Source: a virus. Taken from it: 61,890 bases of DNA. The stretch is from the IMG/VR virus record IMGVR_UViG_3300043621_000039, positions 1 through 61,890 of that record; one strand, written 5' to 3'. A program made the translations under genes and the position numbers. The notes beneath the pieces were generated by a model, which was given only the letters and a program-made list of their open reading frames with translations, made no database searches and was not told the origin of the DNA. Below, in pieces: positions 4,459 through 55,779 of this stretch. Position 1 is the stretch's first letter. The number at the start of each line of letters is the position of its first letter.

Positions 4459-5368
4459 ATGAAGTTTGTGAGCATCCATCACCACAATTAGCACGTTCTC
4501 GTATCTCGATGCGCTCGGTACGCCTGCCGAGCATGCGCAGATTGCTGCCGAATACGGCATGACGGCTCTCGCCGAGACAAACCATGGCAACACCTCCGGG
4601 CACGTACAGCACGAGAAGGCCTGTAACCGAGCGGGTATCAAGCCACTCTTCGGTCTGGAGGCCTACACTGCGACCGGCGAGCAGGAGGCGCGGAAGTTCC
4701 ACCAGACGATCCTGGCGATGAACCAGGACGGCCTGGCGAATCTCTATCGGATGGTGAGCGAATCCTGGAAGGCGTTCTACAAATGGCCAACGGTGACAGG
4801 GAAGAACTTCGCCCAGTACCAGGAAGGTCTCATTGCGACATCGGGCTGTGCAGATTCGCTACTCAGCTGCAGCTTACTTGGTGGGAAATCAATCCCACCG
4901 GAAGACGCCAGTTGGGAGCGTGCCCTGGATGTGGCAGGCCGCTTCAAGGACCTGATGGGGGACCGGTACTACCTGGAGTGCCAGATCTTCCCGGAGCTGC
5001 CCCGTGCCCTGGAGCTCAATGCCTCTTGGGAGAGGATGGGCCGGGAATTGGGTGTCCCGCTCGTTGCCACGTGCGATGTCCATACCCCTGAGCCTGGACT
5101 GCATAAGGTCCGCGCTACCCTACACGCAGCCGGGCGAGGCTCCGCAACGATCGCCCAACAAATGGAGGGCTGGGAGTATGAGGTCCCGGACTACATACCA
5201 CGCTCCGATGCGGAGGTTTATGAGCGGCTGTGTCGTGCCGGGCTATCGCCATCTGCGGCGGCAGAGGCGTGCCGGAACACGGCCGCCATTGCGGAGAGAT
5301 GCAACGTAGTCCTGCCCAAGGCTCCCCGTTTCGAGTACCCCGCAACCGCAGAGGAGATGAAGTGGTGA
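4459..5368 (+). CDS. dnaE: DNA polymerase III alpha, PHP-domain part (frame broken near its start)
   Basis: From 4490 to 5368 one frame encodes a clear PHP domain: FSYLDALGTP, TNHGN, GLEAYTA and CDVHTPE match the metal-binding blocks that open bacterial DnaE. The natural start is ATG at 4459, giving MKFVSIHHH, which matches the family N-terminus. That frame hits TAG at 4489 after ten codons. The rest is in the +1 frame. Four bases, AATT (4486-4489), sit between the codons for HHH and STFSYLD; removing them restores the expected HHHSTFSYLD. Without a shift, the first usable ATG is 4559, losing the HxH metal ligands. The frame ends with a stop at the border of the PHP and polymerase domains, and the core continues at 5661. 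Confidence 0.75.
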
Positions 5369-5571: not shown

Positions 5572-5664
5572 ATGATCAAGGAAGAGAGACAACTGTTGGC
5601 GTATATGGCTTTCCTCTTCCTGTTGGCGCTGGGTTGCTTCATCCTAGCAGGGCTGATAGCATGA
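5572..5664 (+). CDS. Small single-pass membrane peptide
   Basis: 30 residues: a charged N-terminus (MIKEERQ) and one hydrophobic segment of about 20 residues. Start ATG follows the previous stop directly with GGGAGG upstream; its stop overlaps the ATG of the polymerase core (ATGA). Function unknown. Confidence 0.55.
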   Translation: MIKEERQLLAYMAFLFLLALGCFILAGLIA

Positions 5665-7955
5665 GCACGCCGATCGAGCCGGTTGAACTCCTCTGGGCGT
5701 GGCTGCGGGAGGGCTGGAAGTACCGAGTCAGCCAGGGGTGGGACCCGGCTCGCAACGGCGTAGAGAACTACGTGCAGCAGATCAACGCTGAGATGGATCT
5801 CATTGTTCCCAAGGGATTCGTCTCGTACTTCCTCATGGTGTCGGATGGGATCCGCTGGGCGAAGGATCACGGCATTGCGGTCGGTCCGGGTCGTGGTTCG
5901 TCCGCCGCGTCGGTCTGCTGCTGGCTACTTCGTATCACCGAGCCAGACCCACTCGACTTCCCGCTGACGGACTTCTCCCGCTTCATCGACCCCACCCGTG
6001 AGGACCTGCCTGACATCGACGTGGACTTTGAGGATGAGCGCCGGCACGAGGTCCGCGCTTACTTTGAGGCCAAGTACGGCAGGGATTACGTTGGCAACAT
6101 TGGCACCTTCACCAAGTACAAGGGGAAGAACTCCCTGAAGGACGTCCAGGTGGTGCACCGGGCGGAGCAGGGTCCGGCGTTCCGCTCTGACATTGAGCGG
6201 CTGAAGGGGATGCTGGTGGAGCGCTCGGGCGGTGACTCCCGCGCGGACGCGGCCCTGATGGATACTATCCAGATGTTCGAGGGTGCACAGGAGATCTTCG
6301 CCAAATACCCAGAAGAGATTGGGATTGCGGTCACGCTGGAGGGCAACTACCGCTCGATGTCGACGCACTCCGCCGGTGTCGTCGTCACAACGCAGCCGAT
6401 CGCTGAGATCACCGCGCAGTACACACGGGTCGTGAAGGGCCGCGAGATCACTGCGGTTGCGGTCGACAAGTATGATGCCGAGTACCTCAACCTGATGAAG
6501 ATGGATCTGCTTGGGCTGACTACTATGGGGATGCTGGCGAAGGCCCTGCGGTTCGCCGGGATGACGCTGGAGGAACTGTACCGGCTCCCGCTCGATGACC
6601 CGGCGACGATCGCTGCATTCCACGCCAATGACGTGATCGGCATCTTCCAGTTCGAAGGTCGTGCCACCCGGCTGGTGGGTCGAGATTTGCGGCCTGACAA
6701 CATATTCGAGCTGATCGACGTGAACGCGCTCTCCCGGCCTGGACCGCTCTTCTCCGGTACCACAGCCGAGTACATCAAGGTGAAGCACGGTGAGATGGAG
6801 CCTTCCCCGCTGCACCCGGTGATCGATAAGATTGCTGAGCAGACCAAGGGCCAGATCATCTACCAGGAGCAGATTCTCCATGCCCTCGCACAGTTTGGTG
6901 GTCTCCCGGTCCGGAAGGTGCACGACATCCGCCGGATCATCTCCAAAAAACTGGGCGAGGCTGCCTTCAACTCCTCCTTCGAAGCGTTCGCGGAAGGTGC
7001 CGCGTCGCTGCATGGTGCGTCGCGTGAGCTATCGCAGGAGGTCTGGGGCCGGGTCGTGACGTCCGCGTCCTATGCGTTCGTCTACTCGCACTCGCTGGCC
7101 TACACCATCATCGGGTACTGGTCGCAGTACATGAAAGTCAATCACCCCACCGCTTTCTACGCAGCACAGCTCTCCAAGATCAAGCAGGATAAGTGGCCCA
7201 AGCTGATCCGCGACGCGGAGGCGCACGGGGTGCGGGTCGAGGGCGTGGACCTCAAGCACTCCGGCGATACCTGGGCGCCCACGCCGGACGGCCGTGTGGT
7301 GGCAGGGTTCCTGCAGCTGGAGGGCGTAGGACCGGCGCTCTCCGTCACCATCATGGAGGACCGCGAAGCGCGCGGGCCGTTCCGGAACGCCCAGGACCTG
7401 TTGCGGGTCAAGGGAATCGGGGAGGCCAAGCTAGCCAAGATGATCCCGCAGATCGAGGGGGATGACCCGTTCGGGCTGTTGCGGGTCAAACTATCCCTGG
7501 ACTCCGTCCGCGAGGCAATCGCCAACCGGTCGATCCCGCTCCCGGTTCCGAACGCGGACAGCGACAAGATCCTGGACGCCAAGGCTGACAGCACGATCTA
7601 CTTCGTGGGGATGGTAAAGCTCAAGGAATACAAGGATGTCCTGGAGGATGAGCGCTCCCGGACCGGTGACGATATGGAGACGATCCGCGCTCGCGTCAAG
7701 CGTCCGGACCTGGCGACCTCCTGCGTGCTGCACTCCTATGACGACGGTGGGGAGGATGTGTACGTCCGTATCACCCGGTATGACTTCCCCAAGTACCGCA
7801 AGGCTCTGGAAGAGATCCGGGAGGACCTGGACGTGATCTGGGTGGAGGCGCGGAAGTCCTCCGGTGGGTTCGGAGCCTCCATCTACGTCAAGCGGCTGAT
7901 TGTAATCGATCCAGAGGATGACGATGAGGAGAACGAAGATGACGATGGTACCTAG
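5661..7955 (+). CDS. dnaE: DNA polymerase III alpha, polymerase core
   Basis: 764 residues lacking the PHP domain. GPGRGSSAAS (about residue 75), PDIDVDF (two palm aspartates near residues 118-120) and LMKMDLLGL (third aspartate near residue 282) give the full C-family catalytic triad. GIFQFEG, SRPGPL, YQEQ and YSHSLAYTIIGYW follow in the usual order, then a helix-hairpin-helix near VKGIGEAKLAKM. Together with the PHP part at 4459-5368 the total of about 1,066 residues is normal for one DnaE chain. ATG at 5661 overlaps the previous stop. It should be the replicative polymerase of the phage, working with the primase-helicase at 12.9 kb. Confidence 0.93.
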   Translation: MSTPIEPVELLWAWLREGWKYRVSQGWDPARNGVENYVQQINAEMDLIVPKGFVSYFLMVSDGIRWAKDHGIAVGPGRGSSAASVCCWLLRITEPDPLDFPLTDFSRFIDPTREDLPDIDVDFEDERRHEVRAYFEAKYGRDYVGNIGTFTKYKGKNSLKDVQVVHRAEQGPAFRSDIERLKGMLVERSGGDSRADAALMDTIQMFEGAQEIFAKYPEEIGIAVTLEGNYRSMSTHSAGVVVTTQPIAEITAQYTRVVKGREITAVAVDKYDAEYLNLMKMDLLGLTTMGMLAKALRFAGMTLEELYRLPLDDPATIAAFHANDVIGIFQFEGRATRLVGRDLRPDNIFELIDVNALSRPGPLFSGTTAEYIKVKHGEMEPSPLHPVIDKIAEQTKGQIIYQEQILHALAQFGGLPVRKVHDIRRIISKKLGEAAFNSSFEAFAEGAASLHGASRELSQEVWGRVVTSASYAFVYSHSLAYTIIGYWSQYMKVNHPTAFYAAQLSKIKQDKWPKLIRDAEAHGVRVEGVDLKHSGDTWAPTPDGRVVAGFLQLEGVGPALSVTIMEDREARGPFRNAQDLLRVKGIGEAKLAKMIPQIEGDDPFGLLRVKLSLDSVREAIANRSIPLPVPNADSDKILDAKADSTIYFVGMVKLKEYKDVLEDERSRTGDDMETIRARVKRPDLATSCVLHSYDDGGEDVYVRITRYDFPKYRKALEEIREDLDVIWVEARKSSGGFGASIYVKRLIVIDPEDDDEENEDDDGT

Positions 7956-12001: not shown

Positions 12002-12542
12002 GGCCTGGATGGATCCTGAAGCCGCGTTGGGGCTGTGGGGCGGAGAGGACGATGCCTCCTCGTACCAGGTCCTGTCTGTGGATCCGGGTGGCACCACCGG
12101 TTGGGCCGTCTTTTCGGTGCACCCAGACGCCATGGGACCAGACCCGGACATCCCGGTGCTGGGGAACGTCGAGTGGTGGACCGCCGGGGAGGTCACCGGG
12201 AACCAGGACGGTCAGTGTGACGAACTCATTGCCCTGATTGCCGAATGGCCGTCCGCCCGGCTCGTGACGGAGCGCTTCAAGCTCCGGCAGATGAACGCAG
12301 AGCTGTCACCGGTCGAGGTGAACGCTATCCTGCGTTGGGCGGTCCGACCGCGCTATTGGGTGGTGCAGAACCCAGATCTCGCAATGGGTACCGTGACCGA
12401 TGACCGGCAGAAGGCCTGGGGCTTCTGGCTTCCGGGGAAGGAGCATGCCCGAGACGCCATCAAGCACAACATCACCTACCTGAAGCGCGTCAAGGAGCGC
12501 GCCGTGCTCGCGGGAAGGGCGAGGTTCAATGGTAAAGCGTAA
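11994..12542 (+). CDS. RuvC-like Holliday junction resolvase
   Basis: About 182 residues with an RNase H fold signature: LSVDPGGTTGWAVF holds the first catalytic Asp, VTERF the Glu, and HARDAIKHNI the C-terminal His/Asp pair. The order and spacing match phage RuvC-like resolvases, which cut branched DNA before packaging. GTG at 11994 was chosen because it overlaps the previous stop slightly; ATG at 12009 is also possible. Confidence 0.8.
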   Translation: MSEAWMDPEAALGLWGGEDDASSYQVLSVDPGGTTGWAVFSVHPDAMGPDPDIPVLGNVEWWTAGEVTGNQDGQCDELIALIAEWPSARLVTERFKLRQMNAELSPVEVNAILRWAVRPRYWVVQNPDLAMGTVTDDRQKAWGFWLPGKEHARDAIKHNITYLKRVKERAVLAGRARFNGKA

Positions 12543-12702
12543 GCGGCGCAAGGGTTTCTGGTGCACGCAGCGGCTGCACGAGGCTCGGATGGTGGAGGGG
12601 CTAGGGCTCTGTTCGGCCTGCCTAGGTTGGATTGATGACCCCCGGCATACCTCGATCGGCCCGGTCGTGCGGGGCGTATCGTTCGTGCTACGCCTCCGTT
12701 AA
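12529..12702 (+). CDS. Small basic cysteine-containing protein
   Basis: 57 residues starting inside the end of the resolvase gene with GAGG upstream. Very basic start (MVKRKRRKGFW) and cysteines at WCTQ and CSACLG. It could bind nucleic acid with one zinc; function unknown. Confidence 0.5.
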   Translation: MVKRKRRKGFWCTQRLHEARMVEGLGLCSACLGWIDDPRHTSIGPVVRGVSFVLRLR

Positions 12703-12720
12703 CGGATCGGATTTTTTATC

Positions 12721-12909
12721 ATGACTCAAACCATTACAGCGCCCGGGAAGCCGGGTAGACCGGCTATCGGTCCCAAGGCGCAGACCCATATTCCGCAGGA
12801 TGAGATGGACTTCCTGCTACAGGAAGCTAGGTCGTTGGAGGTCCCATATGCGGATGTGCTACGGGAGGTCATCGCCGCAGGCATCGCTGCGCGGCGGGGT
12901 GGAGCGTGA
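12721..12909 (+). CDS. Ribbon-helix-helix (CopG-like) DNA-binding protein
   Basis: 62 residues. A short strand (QTHIPQDE) followed by two helices (MDFLLQEARSLEV, YADVLREVIAAGIAA) fits the ribbon-helix-helix fold of CopG/Arc repressors. The N-terminus has a GRPAIG AT-hook-like stretch. It lies directly upstream of, and overlaps, the primase-helicase gene, in the position where CopG-like proteins control replication genes on plasmids. An 18-base T-rich gap and no clear ribosome site precede the ATG. Confidence 0.65.
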   Translation: MTQTITAPGKPGRPAIGPKAQTHIPQDEMDFLLQEARSLEVPYADVLREVIAAGIAARRGGA

Positions 12910-15374
12910 CGCGTCGGCACCTCCATTCGGTTCAGCCGTTGTCGGAGGTCCAGCCATACGCGTTCGCCGCTACGCACTACTTCAACGCCGGTTGGAGTCC
13001 TTTGCCGCTGCCACCCGGCGAGAAGTCATGGCCCCCAACGGGATACACCGGCGGTAAGGGTCGCTCGGCGGAGCCGGAAAAGGTGCAGCACTGGATCCGG
13101 ACCAAGCCCAACGGGAACATCGCGCTGCGGATGCCGCCGAACCTGCTGGGGATTGACGTCGATGCCTACTCAGGGAAGGATGGCGCCGCGACGCTCGCCG
13201 CTGCAGAGGCAGATTGGGGAGAGCTACCGCCGACCTGGCGATCAACCTCAAGGACGGATGGGGTTTCAGGCATTCGGCTGTTCCGGGTACCGGAGGGACT
13301 GCTGTGGCCAGGCAAGCTGCCGCATGGCGGAGGGATCGAGCTATGCCGCTGGGACCACCGCTATGTGATCGTCGCACCGTCGATCCACGACAAGACCGGA
13401 GACCAGTATCACTGGTTCAATCCGTTGGGGGAGCAGACTACCGGCGCTGCTGTCGAGAATGGCGAGTGGGAGTTTCCCGCGCTCGATGAGCTAGCAACGC
13501 TGCCGGAGGCATGGGTTGCCGGTCTCACCGCTGGTAAGAAGTGGATCGAGCGGGAAGAGGAGGACCTGGATCCGGGCGAGGTAGCCCAGTGGATCAAGGA
13601 CCGTCCAGATGGTGATATGTGCTCCAAGATGGAGCGCACGCTGGACGCCTGGATGGCGAAGATCTCGGCCGCCGGAGAGGACGGAGGCGCGCACGACGCT
13701 GCGCGGGACGGTGCCTGGTCTGTATTGCGTGATGCGGCGGCAGGGCACTCCGGTGTGCAGCACGCGCTCCGGAAGATCATGCTAGCGCACAAGGAGGCGC
13801 TCAGGCTCCGGCGTCCAGAGTCCTCCGGTTCCGAGTGGGCCTCGATGAAAGCGCGTGGGGTCCGGAAGGTTGCTGCGGAAGGTCCCACCGATGACGATGA
13901 CCCCTGTGAGATGGGGGAGGTCTCGCGTCCAGCCGCGCGTCGCAATCGCGGTTCGGATGGGATGGACTTCGAGCGGGACGATATCGGCAACGGGCAACGG
14001 TTCGCCCTGCAGTGGCGGGATGAGGTCCGCTGGGTGCCGGCCTACGCGTGTTGGTATATCTGGAGAGACCGGGTATGGGAGCCGGACACCACTGAAGAGA
14101 TCGTCCGGATGGCGACCAAGACGGTACGGGGGATGCTGGCTGAGGCCCAGTTCATCGAGGATCTCAAGGAGCGCGCCGCGTTCCGGAAGTTCGTCCGGTC
14201 CTCCTCCAACCGGGGGAAGCTGCTTGCCATGCTAGATATGGCGAAGGGCAACAAGGGGATCACGGTACCGGCGGAGACCTTCGATACCGATACCGGTCAG
14301 CTGGTGTGTCCTAACGGGACTGTAGAACTCCCACTCGAATTCTCCGGAGGCGCGGTGCGCCGGGTGCGTTCGGTCCAGGAGCACTACAACACGATCGAGA
14401 CTGGAACAGCGTACGTGGAGGGCGTGCGGTTCCCAGAGTGGGAGAAGTTCCTGGCCAAGTTCCAGCCGGATGAGGAGGTCCGTGCCTGGCTGCAGAAGCT
14501 GGCAGGGTACTCGCTGCTAGGGCGTAATCCGCGCCGACTTATGGTGGTATGCATGGGAGAAACCTCCACCGGTAAGACCACCTTCGCAGAGGCGGTCTCG
14601 GGCGCTCTGGGGGCGTATGCGGGTTCCGCCAACATGACGATCTTCCGCGACAACCAGGACGAGAGGCCACGTCCAGACCTGATCCGGGTGCTACCGAAGC
14701 GGTTCGTCTACGCGGAGGAGGCCTCGCGGAGCTGGCACCTGCACCCAGACCAGATCAAGCGGCTGACCGGCGGGGCGCCGGTGACCGCGCGGACCTTGCA
14801 GGCCAAGGTCTACGTGGATATGGTGCCGCGCTTCACGCCCTGGCTGCTGACGAACGCCGCGCCAACTATCGAGGGGGCTGACGCAGCGCTCTGGCGACGG
14901 ATGGTGGTGGTGCCGTTTGATGTCGAGATCCCCAAAACGGAGGAGGATGCGCGGTTCGCCGCGTCGCTCGCGACGGGGGAGGGTCGGCAGGCCGTCCTCG
15001 CGTGGCTCGTGGAGGGGTATCAGGCCTACCTTGCGGATCCGGACTCGGTGCAGGAGATCCCGATGCGGGCCGTGGCAGCTAACCGGCGGTTCCGCTCGGA
15101 GGTGTCGGACCTGGCGCAGTGCCTGGAGGACATGTGCGAATTCGGGGATGATGAGTACCGCGTGGAGCCGGCAAAGCTCTATCGCGCCTACAAGATGTGG
15201 TGCGATGAGAATGGGGTCGCCGGGAGGGATGTGCTGACGTCTACGAAGATGGGGAGGGAGTTGACGGGGCGTGGGCATCAGAAGAAAACTTGGAAGATCG
15301 ACGGGCGGCCGATCTGGTTCAGAACGGGGCTCCGATTGCGGCCTGATTGGGCCCGCGTTGTAGGCGCGGGGTAG
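12906..15374 (+). CDS. Primase-polymerase / D5-type SF3 helicase
   Basis: 822 residues. The N-terminal 250 residues look like a prim-pol domain: GIDVDAY near residue 82 supplies metal-binding aspartates and GIELCRWDHRYVIVAPS follows. The C-terminal part is a P4/D5-type SF3 helicase: Walker A GETSTGKTT near residue 551, Walker B-like RFVYAEEA near 598, sensor LLTNAAP near 647 and an arginine finger in WRRMVVVPF. This fusion is typical of phage and plasmid replication initiators that both unwind and prime at an origin. It is flanked by a ribbon-helix-helix gene upstream and an iteron region downstream. Confidence 0.9.
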   Translation: MTRRHLHSVQPLSEVQPYAFAATHYFNAGWSPLPLPPGEKSWPPTGYTGGKGRSAEPEKVQHWIRTKPNGNIALRMPPNLLGIDVDAYSGKDGAATLAAAEADWGELPPTWRSTSRTDGVSGIRLFRVPEGLLWPGKLPHGGGIELCRWDHRYVIVAPSIHDKTGDQYHWFNPLGEQTTGAAVENGEWEFPALDELATLPEAWVAGLTAGKKWIEREEEDLDPGEVAQWIKDRPDGDMCSKMERTLDAWMAKISAAGEDGGAHDAARDGAWSVLRDAAAGHSGVQHALRKIMLAHKEALRLRRPESSGSEWASMKARGVRKVAAEGPTDDDDPCEMGEVSRPAARRNRGSDGMDFERDDIGNGQRFALQWRDEVRWVPAYACWYIWRDRVWEPDTTEEIVRMATKTVRGMLAEAQFIEDLKERAAFRKFVRSSSNRGKLLAMLDMAKGNKGITVPAETFDTDTGQLVCPNGTVELPLEFSGGAVRRVRSVQEHYNTIETGTAYVEGVRFPEWEKFLAKFQPDEEVRAWLQKLAGYSLLGRNPRRLMVVCMGETSTGKTTFAEAVSGALGAYAGSANMTIFRDNQDERPRPDLIRVLPKRFVYAEEASRSWHLHPDQIKRLTGGAPVTARTLQAKVYVDMVPRFTPWLLTNAAPTIEGADAALWRRMVVVPFDVEIPKTEEDARFAASLATGEGRQAVLAWLVEGYQAYLADPDSVQEIPMRAVAANRRFRSEVSDLAQCLEDMCEFGDDEYRVEPAKLYRAYKMWCDENGVAGRDVLTSTKMGRELTGRGHQKKTWKIDGRPIWFRTGLRLRPDWARVVGAG

Positions 15375-15749
15375 TCGCTCCGCTAGGGGTGGGGGTAGTC
15401 GCTCCGCTACCCCCAACCCAGATACTCAACCCAGATACCCGAGTAAAGAATGTTTTTAGTACCGGTGAGTAACGGCAGAGTTGAAGATCGTTTAGGGGGC
15501 CGGTATCTGGGTTGGTAGCTGAGTTGAAGCTGAGTTTTCACTCAACCCAGATACCGGATGTATTACCTGGTAGAAGTGGGTATTTACAAGATCGGGTATC
15601 TGGGTATCTGGGTTTACGGGAAAGAAGATAGAGATTCGTAAAAAACAGGGGTTCTACCCCGGTACGTTTACGTAGGGGCTAAGTCTGACCGTCAACCCAG
15701 ATACCCAGATACCCCTACTTCGATAGGAATTGAGTAGAAGGGCTGTACA
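15375..15749. other. Noncoding region, candidate replication origin
   Basis: No plausible gene lies here. The region follows the primase-helicase gene and is packed with direct and inverted copies of AACCCAGATACC (listed separately). It also contains a perfect hairpin of GGGGGTAG and CTACCCCC (15391-15414), two copies of AGCTGAGTT (15517 and 15528), and locally AT-rich stretches near 15445 and 15620-15650. These are the usual parts of an iteron-type origin. Replication activity is inferred, not shown. Confidence 0.65.
15415..15715. repeat. Iteron array: eight copies of AACCCAGATACC in both orientations
   Basis: Forward copies start at 15415 (last base differs), 15428, 15544, 15694 and 15703. 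Reverse-complement copies (GGTATCTGGGTT) start at 15502, 15595 and 15603. The tandem pair at 15594-15614 is the exact reverse complement of the pair at 15694-15714, giving a perfect 21-base inverted repeat with 79 bases between its arms. The copies at 15502 and 15544 form another perfect 12-base inverted pair. No other gene-free region of the genome shows this motif. Confidence 0.85.
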
Positions 15750-15983
15750 ATGCCAGGTGACAAGCGTGAGGTGGACAGTTGGTCCGAGTCGGAATTTGGA
15801 CTTGGTGATGGCTTTATCGATCCAATTTCGAGGGCTGAAAGGTCGATGCCGCCACACCAGGCATTGGCTGAGATTTACTCGCTGCCCCACAGTTTTGATG
15901 GGTCCAGTGAGGCCGGGATGGTGCCGCCTGAAGAGACGCCGGTGCCTCGGTTGTTGCCGGGTGAGAAGGAGAGCGACCGGTGA
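15750..15983 (+). CDS. Small acidic hypothetical protein
   Basis: 77 residues, first gene after the iteron region, with GAAGGG about 8 bases before the ATG. Acidic and proline-rich (VPPEETPVPRLLPGEKES). A competing longer frame starting at 15730 is Arg-rich and lacks a ribosome site, so this frame is preferred. No family recognised. Confidence 0.5.
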   Translation: MPGDKREVDSWSESEFGLGDGFIDPISRAERSMPPHQALAEIYSLPHSFDGSSEAGMVPPEETPVPRLLPGEKESDR

Positions 15984-16159
15984 AGGTCAGACGCTGCGCT
16001 GAACTGGAACGGCACGAGCCACACGTTTGGAAGGATGGGTGGCGTGACTTGGATTGCCCCGGGCTGAAGCACAGGTCCACTGTTCGTGGGCGTCCGCGTT
16101 CAAGGCCAGTAGCCGCAGTCTCGCCGCTGGAGGAGGCTCGGCGCCATGAGCAAGTCTGA
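15980..16159 (+). CDS. Small Cys/His protein (paralog of 17223)
   Basis: 59 residues, GTG start overlapping the previous stop. RCAELERHEPHVW then DCPG gives a C-H-H-C pattern also seen in the protein at 17223 (RCDKLKRHDPHPW, ECPG), with a similar basic Arg/Ser/Pro tail. Probably a small zinc-binding protein. Confidence 0.55.
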   Translation: MKVRRCAELERHEPHVWKDGWRDLDCPGLKHRSTVRGRPRSRPVAAVSPLEEARRHEQV

Positions 16160-16391
16160 CAAGGTGCGGTCCTCACTGGGGTTCCGCAATGACCAAGCCA
16201 ATCTGGGGCTAGCGACGACGCGCGAACTGTTGGAGGAACTGCGTCTGCGCGCTGGGCACCACCCGAGCCTCTGTACTCAAAGCCAACTGGAGGTCCGGCG
16301 CACGATCGAGGAGGCGCTGGACCTGTACCTGCTGCCTGGCGTGCTGCCGGAGGACTTTCTGGAGTACAGGACCTGGACCCCAAATGGATGA
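16146..16391 (+). CDS. Hypothetical helical protein (paralog of 9455)
   Basis: 81 residues with GGAGGAGG upstream. Contains ATTRELLEELRLR, shared with the protein at 9455, then a second helix (QLEVRRTIEEALDLYLLPGVLP). The two-helix plan could be a small dimerising domain. Function unknown. Confidence 0.65.
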   Translation: MSKSDKVRSSLGFRNDQANLGLATTRELLEELRLRAGHHPSLCTQSQLEVRRTIEEALDLYLLPGVLPEDFLEYRTWTPNG

Positions 16392-55093: not shown

Positions 55094-55642
55094 ATGACTG
55101 CACCGGCTGAGGAATACGAAGAGATGGACTACACGTACGTGCTCGGTAAGGAGGCGACTCCGCTGCAGGCACGGATGGCGGATTGGCTGCGCTCGGAGGA
55201 GGTCGGTTACGACCCCAACGCCGCGAAGTCCAAGCTGGACGCCTTCAACGAGGGCGTGCGGCTCGCCGTGGCGCACCGGATGAACTACCAGTCGTCCACG
55301 CACAACCGCGAGGCCACCGAGATCGAGCGGACCGAGCGTGCGGCGGAGCGCGCGAAGCAGGCCGCCGAGCGGGAGCAGGCCAAGGCCCAGCGCGAAGCTG
55401 CGAAGCAGAACGCCGCCAATGCCAAGGCCGCTGCGGCTGCCACGGCTCCGGTCGAGGAGGCTGCCCCGGCGGCACCGGCTGCCAAGCCCGTCAAGCGTGG
55501 CCGTGCGGCAGCCAAGCCCGCTCCGGCTCCGGCGGCTGCGGCTCCGGCTCCGGCCCCTGCGGGGCGCCCGGCAGCGCGGCGCGCTCCGGCTCGGCGTGCG
55601 GCTCCGGCGGCTGCTGCGACCGCTGGCGAGGCACCGTTCTGA
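55094..55642 (+). CDS. Ala/Pro/Lys-rich protein with helical N-terminus
   Basis: 182 residues from ATG 55094 (GAGGGAAG upstream). Residues 1-75 are a compact helical part with DYTYVLGKEATPLQARM; residues 75-110 are a charged helix; the rest is a long Ala/Pro/Arg/Lys-rich tail like histone H1 or Lsr2-type linker tails. The tail suggests DNA binding. The final GEAPF is reminiscent of SSB tips but is not acidic enough to call. Confidence 0.6.
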   Translation: MTAPAEEYEEMDYTYVLGKEATPLQARMADWLRSEEVGYDPNAAKSKLDAFNEGVRLAVAHRMNYQSSTHNREATEIERTERAAERAKQAAEREQAKAQREAAKQNAANAKAAAAATAPVEEAAPAAPAAKPVKRGRAAAKPAPAPAAAAPAPAPAGRPAARRAPARRAAPAAAATAGEAPF

Positions 55643-55678: not shown

Positions 55679-55779
55679 GGGGAGGTAGCTCAACGGAGAG
55701 AGCACCGACCGGCGGTGTGGGAGCTGGCGCCCTAGACCGCATGGGTTGGAGGGTTGGGGTTCGAATCCCCACCTCCCCA
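55679..55779 (+). ncRNA. tRNA-like RNA with extended anticodon arm
   Basis: Acceptor stem GGGGAGG (55679-55685) pairs perfectly with CCTCCCC (55772-55778). D-arm TA-GCTC-AACGGAGA-GAGC is canonical in size. T-arm TGGGG-TTCGAAT-CCCCA is perfect. The next helix CCGAC/GTTGG fits an anticodon stem, but it encloses 35 bases instead of 7, which can extend as GCGGT/ACCGC and GGG/CCC with loop AGCTGGCG. No anticodon with U33 can be placed. Total about 100 bases; no CCA encoded; discriminator A. Confidence 0.6.

Follow-up and report, generated by a model that had tools for sequence, protein, structure and literature searches.

A probable iteron-type replication origin behind the PrimPol-SF3 gene of a tailed phage

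What is the role of the short repeats that follow a primase-helicase gene in the virus record IMGVR_UViG_3300043621_000039? The stretch analysed here (the window) covers positions 1 to 61,890 of that record. An open reading frame (ORF) of 62 aa coding for a ribbon-helix-helix (RHH)-like small protein of the CopG/ORF56 kind (12721-12909, + strand) shares the nucleotides GTGA at 12906-12909 with an ORF of 822 aa (12906-15374, + strand) coding for a PrimPol-D5_N-SF3 helicase, a putative replication initiator. This is followed by a gene-free gap of exactly 375 nt (15375-15749), and the next plausible ORF begins at 15750. An earlier note on this DNA had described a CopG-like gene overlapping a prim-pol/SF3 helicase gene and eight repeat copies in both orientations within 375 gene-free bases; both descriptions were confirmed, the first with an overlap of 4 nt and the second by a site scan. 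We consider it likely that the gap is the replication origin of the phage, with the product of the adjacent upstream gene, the PrimPol-SF3 protein, as its initiator.

The repeat AACCCAGATACC is found in the gap eight times with one mismatch at most (five exact copies and three with one mismatch), five times on the + strand and three on the - strand. All such copies in the 61,890 nt fall inside the gap, and the reversed pattern, used as a control, has zero copies in the record. Counting a degenerate ninth copy, the array starts with iterons 1 (AACCCAGATACT, one mismatch, 15415-15426) and 2 (AACCCAGATACC, 15428-15439) on the + strand, followed by iteron 3 (AACCCAGATACC, 15502-15513) and the degenerate iteron 4 (AACTCAGCTACC, two mismatches, 15514-15525, the same as a repeat of the relative L009) on the - strand. 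Iteron 5 (AACCCAGATACC, 15544-15555) is again on the + strand, and about 20 bp past it there is a conserved CCTGGTAGAAG box (15566-15576, + strand). Iterons 6 (TACCCAGATACC, one mismatch, 15595-15606) and 7 (AACCCAGATACC, 15603-15614), 8 bp apart on the - strand, and iterons 8 (AACCCAGATACC, 15694-15705) and 9 (TACCCAGATACC, one mismatch, 15702-15713), also 8 bp apart on the + strand, make two inverted tandem pairs around an AT-richer spacer (15615-15693) that is a candidate unwinding element, with an AT content of 0.51 versus 0.38 for the record, moderate for an AT-rich unwinding region. The window thus has what characterizes an iteron-type origin, a cluster of short repeats beyond chance next to the gene of the putative initiator. 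Besides the iterons, a GC-rich hairpin (GGGGGTAG...CTACCCCC, 15392-15415) and a direct repeat of 18 nt lie across the stop codon of the primase gene, and no Rfam match to a structural RNA was found within the 375 nt. A second place of the window rich in one 7-mer (CCGGAGC, 55445-55601) was judged to be coding low complexity, the sequence being rich in Ala and Pro.

Comparison with related phages, one of the checks put forward in the earlier note, found the position and layout of the array conserved behind homologous primases. The relatives were taken from searches of viral contigs (L009, at 70%, then L014-L090 and others). Homologues with primases 25-76% identical bear arrays at the same place, and nearly all the close relatives have one 3' of the primase, with a word that differs between genomes: ACCCAGATACC in the window, L014 and L031, ACCCAGAGACC/G in L015 and L017, AC(C/T)CAGCTAC in L009, L016 and L079, CCCAGTTAC in L018 and L019, and ACCCGTCTGCC in L036. 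In more distant relatives the words are unrelated. Across the types of word seen (GATA, GAGA, GCTA, GTTA and others) the order and the spacing of the sites are conserved. Some arrays are in a mixed state, as would be expected if one word gradually gave way to the next. The odd copy in the window is the L009/L016 word, L031 has CTCAGCTAC next to CCCAGATAC, and L009, L015 and L017 bear CCCAGCGAC. A single copy of the L009 word, TACCCAGCTACC, was also seen in L009 at 1288-1299, about 6 kb before its array.

In 21 of the 27 loci examined 3' of homologous primases, a set that includes the near-duplicate contigs L022, L029 and L033, none of 300 dinucleotide shuffles reached the count of the top 7-mer; the test failed in L024, L026, L028, L029, L030 and L035. 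Named actinophages have such arrays as well. Gordonia phage Madi has eight copies of ATTACGG after the primase and an annotated RHH gene directly before it, Mycobacterium phage Hawkeye has eight copies of GCGGAAC, and the words of Mycobacterium phage Madruga and Gordonia phage LuckyLeo are CTGAAAC and CGGTACG. Madi and Hawkeye belong with the window in the primase-helicase family PHROG 1156, but their primases are only about 28-30% identical to that of the window and their repeat words are others. The records of both, as viewed, hold the arrays without an origin annotation, and in the part of the literature covered we found no report of such arrays, nor of replication start sites for these phages.

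Since the array lies between two genes of the same transcription direction, it could instead serve as an operator for transcription, or act in packaging or recombination, with no relation to replication. We regard this as the least likely of the explanations considered: the genes downstream of the array vary among relatives, but its association with the primase is constant, 12300-16300 contains no promoter-like site, no integrase was found, and the layout of the sites agrees with that of known initiator-bound origins.

This layout can be followed independently of the word. Its core is a tandem pair of sites (with a period of 7-10 bp), a spacer of ~55-130 bp and an inverted tandem pair. The full order is two + sites ~13 bp apart, - sites, a + site, the CCTGGTAGA box ~20 bp on, two - sites 8 bp apart, the spacer (~80-110 nt) and a final pair of + sites 8 bp apart. 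A test that ignores the word, and looks for a tandem pair followed 70-150 nt later by the same pair inverted, was positive in 25 of 54 loci; among control windows the figure was 15 of 1800, and among shuffles 4 of 1080. The AT content of the spacer was above the locus average in all the positive loci, barely so in some. Motifs of the box type were found 41 times in the origin regions versus 7.2 expected; in L017 and L031 the box points the opposite way from that of the other loci.

Inverted pairs around a spacer could also be the two arms of a long stem-loop, and it might be this structure that works as origin, as in the Sulfolobus plasmid pRN1. There, the orf56/orf904 operon has the same gene order and protein architecture, and the origin is a stem-loop of ~100 nt downstream (PMC4234260). 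In the window an RHH (CopG-type) gene likewise lies directly before a PrimPol-SF3-winged-helix gene, with the putative origin downstream, and folding of the 375 nt as DNA gives -81 kcal/mol (z=-8.8). However, across 15 loci the pairing is solid only in the repeat pairs and patchy in the flanks, which favours protein sites over a stem-loop like that of pRN1, and copies of the word (iterons 1-5) are also found outside the arms. The authors of the pRN1 work report no iteron structure and detected no specific binding of ORF904 (PMC4234260), unlike the conspicuous iterons of the window, where hairpin pairing is confined to them. A functional stem-loop of which the repeats are mere arms is therefore very unlikely in our opinion.

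The candidate initiator has Pfam matches to Prim-Pol (E=2e-23) and D5_N (E=2e-14), and the PHROG 1156 profile matches it over its full length (E=6e-170, residues 16-818), which makes it a member of this family. Its primase domain is of the Prim-Pol type (archaeo-eukaryotic primase, AEP) and not of the Toprim type found in P4. The AF2 model (mean pLDDT 83, pTM 0.51) has its best PDB fold matches in a viral PrimPol-helicase of the D5 type, and a match by sequence profile is PDB 7ola/7om0 (labelled 'DNA primase', E=3.5e-7), which we take to be a SaPI (Staphylococcus aureus pathogenicity island) Rep. At the C-terminus (residues 735-807) the model has a helix-strand-helix-helix-two strands succession, i.e. 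a winged-helix arrangement, with helices at 735-743, 755-768 and 779-788 and a wing formed by strands 793-798 and 801-807. The codons of residues 736-822, which hold this predicted domain, are at 15111-15371 (+ strand).

By analogy with P4 alpha (PMC4234260), binding to the nine short repeats would fall to the winged helix of the modelled protein. The SF3 domain would assemble on the two inverted tandem pairs and melt the AT-richer spacer between them, the PrimPol domain would prime DNA synthesis, and the split DnaE-type polymerase of the phage itself (4559-7955) would continue it. The RHH protein, produced from the same operon, would most likely repress this operon and in that way time or limit the supply of initiator.

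Phage P4 supports the position of the origin. The 7-mer test applied to its genome recovers crr, the annotated cis-required replication region 3' of the primase-helicase alpha gene, and the P4 repeats of 8 bp are also in both orientations, some 9 bp apart, and directly 3' of the gene (PMC4234260). P4 differs in having a Toprim-type primase (PMC4234260) and a separate ori 4.5 kb away, and alpha has no significant pairwise match with the window protein (E=0.16). A distant relative, L139, has an array (5864-6344) whose word GTGAACAG is that of the P4 type 1 repeats, despite the two proteins being only 22% identical over part of their length.

The geometry itself recalls the phage-inducible chromosomal islands (PICI), in which the origin is immediately 3' of the initiator gene and two iteron sets flank AT-rich DNA; a 2018 paper described this layout as unique to PICI among known bacterial replicons (PMC6092414). 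The origin proposed here is likewise 3' of a helicase initiator gene, with two iteron sets around AT-richer DNA. Unlike PICI and SaPI, the window belongs to a tailed phage of ~62 kb that encodes a capsid, a tail, a terminase and a polymerase of its own, and has a fused PrimPol domain and an RHH gene in the operon. Because TerL, portal, major head and tape-measure genes are present and no integrase was found, the window is not a PICI; these satellites are integrated elements with an integrase and without a full structural gene set of their own. As read from the sequences, then, PICI-like origin geometry is found in tailed phages.

RHH proteins commonly bind short repeated sites, and the repeats could belong to the small protein instead, as an autoregulatory or a partition (centromere-like) site of the kind bound by CopG-, Omega- and ParG-type proteins. 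In 14 of the examined loci an RHH gene is placed where the primase gene begins, and the tandem period of 8 bp would suit such a protein. Nevertheless, significant arrays exist in L054 (57 kb), L034 (61 kb) and L033 (62 kb) with no RHH match anywhere in these contigs (two positive controls did match), which makes it improbable that the iterons are bound by the RHH protein. In addition, there is no copy of the array word upstream of the RHH gene, there is no ParA match, and the array is behind the primase and not before the operon. Binding of the repeats by the RHH protein is thus unlikely.

The assignment of the small protein to the CopG/RHH family comes from its relatives. Alone, the 62-aa protein was negative in the Pfam scan and retrieved nothing in a single-protein search, while its family of 14 members matches RHH_1 and the family profile matches VapB26 and pRN1 ORF56 in PDB. 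The AF2 model contains the two helices, and DSSP gives no strand in the monomer. Two ORF56 structures come first among the PDB matches of the model, with E values (0.14-0.17) that fall short of significance. It is more likely an autorepressor of its operon, like ORF56 of pRN1. A weak candidate for the operator is CGGATCGGAT (12703-12712, + strand), just 5' of the RHH start codon; this exact 10-mer is found once in the window and once at the same place in each of L009, L018 and L031, with variants in L014, L015, L019 and L079. Of the organisation resembling an iteron plasmid that the earlier note had seen, the iteron-type origin with its initiator stands, given the conserved position and layout and the recovery of P4 crr. 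The idea of a small repressor limiting copy number through the repeats was not borne out, and the arrangement, read in the note as an unusual control circuit, is also seen within the group in Madi, with its RHH gene, primase and array.

Several observations weigh against the origin proposed here or its recognition by the winged helix. The GC-skew profile, another check suggested in the earlier note, stays positive from one side of the array to the other and has neither a switch there nor an origin signal. A clear array is lacking in the relatives Fury, GTE8, WhoseManz, Nova and L028; in Zierdtviridae such as Fury, and in Nova, the array is absent or weak. Conservation within the primase is lowest at the winged-helix end (mean identity of 0.47 vs 0.60-0.74 elsewhere in the same 38 pairs), but a within-clade permutation test of its divergence against the repeat word was not significant (424/2000), and pairs with the same word diverge in it as much as pairs with different words. 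The sliding-window partial correlation with the word is also high outside the domain (341-380). Tracking of the word by the winged helix was accordingly not supported statistically. One suggestive example is that of L031, which is 62% identical to the window in residues 761-800, versus 39 and 38% for its sisters L017 and L018. Residue 795, in the wing, splits perfectly by word class (T/A with GATA, S with GAGA, Q with GTTA and I/R with GCTA) and may be part of a recognition code, although it was picked post hoc. As word and divergence do not go together in the small number of pairs at hand, we infer the binding role of the winged helix with the backing of the description of P4 alpha (PMC4234260).

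The source is a soil-type tailed phage related to Gordonia and Mycobacterium phages, the TerL being 51% to Gordonia phages. No integrase, serine recombinase or ParA-type match was found in the window, a record that may be incomplete, and this agrees with the seemingly virulent lifestyle assumed in the earlier note. A DNA-level search of a phage collection gave no match. As to copies in hosts, the genome-contig collection had no full-length close relative (best full-length match 28%) and no match in the plasmid collection covered 80%. The DnaE-type polymerase is in two ORFs, 4559-5368 (PHP part) and 5634-7955 (NTPase/finger/HHH part), split at PHROG 405 positions 330/334 and with small ORFs between the halves. 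Other features of the window are a FabG-like short-chain reductase gene (1063-1749) and an Rfam tRNA match of unusual length (101 nt, 55679-55779, 51.7 bits, above gathering) on which ARAGORN was silent.

Among the relatives the arrangement of the repeats is constant and their spelling is not, a sign that the recognition between initiator and origin may change quickly in these phages. It is possible, though doubtful, that recognition is under selection to change, so that nine sites switch word together with the geometry held and each lineage has a private origin. With private origins a phage would perhaps escape cross-replication with relatives that infect the same cell, or being hijacked by satellites. 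The same organisation is found behind the PrimPol-SF3 genes of many tailed phages, including easily grown phages of Mycobacterium smegmatis and Gordonia in which related arrays make the putative origins testable. Together they offer a natural series in which the geometry of the origin is fixed and the recognised word is variable.
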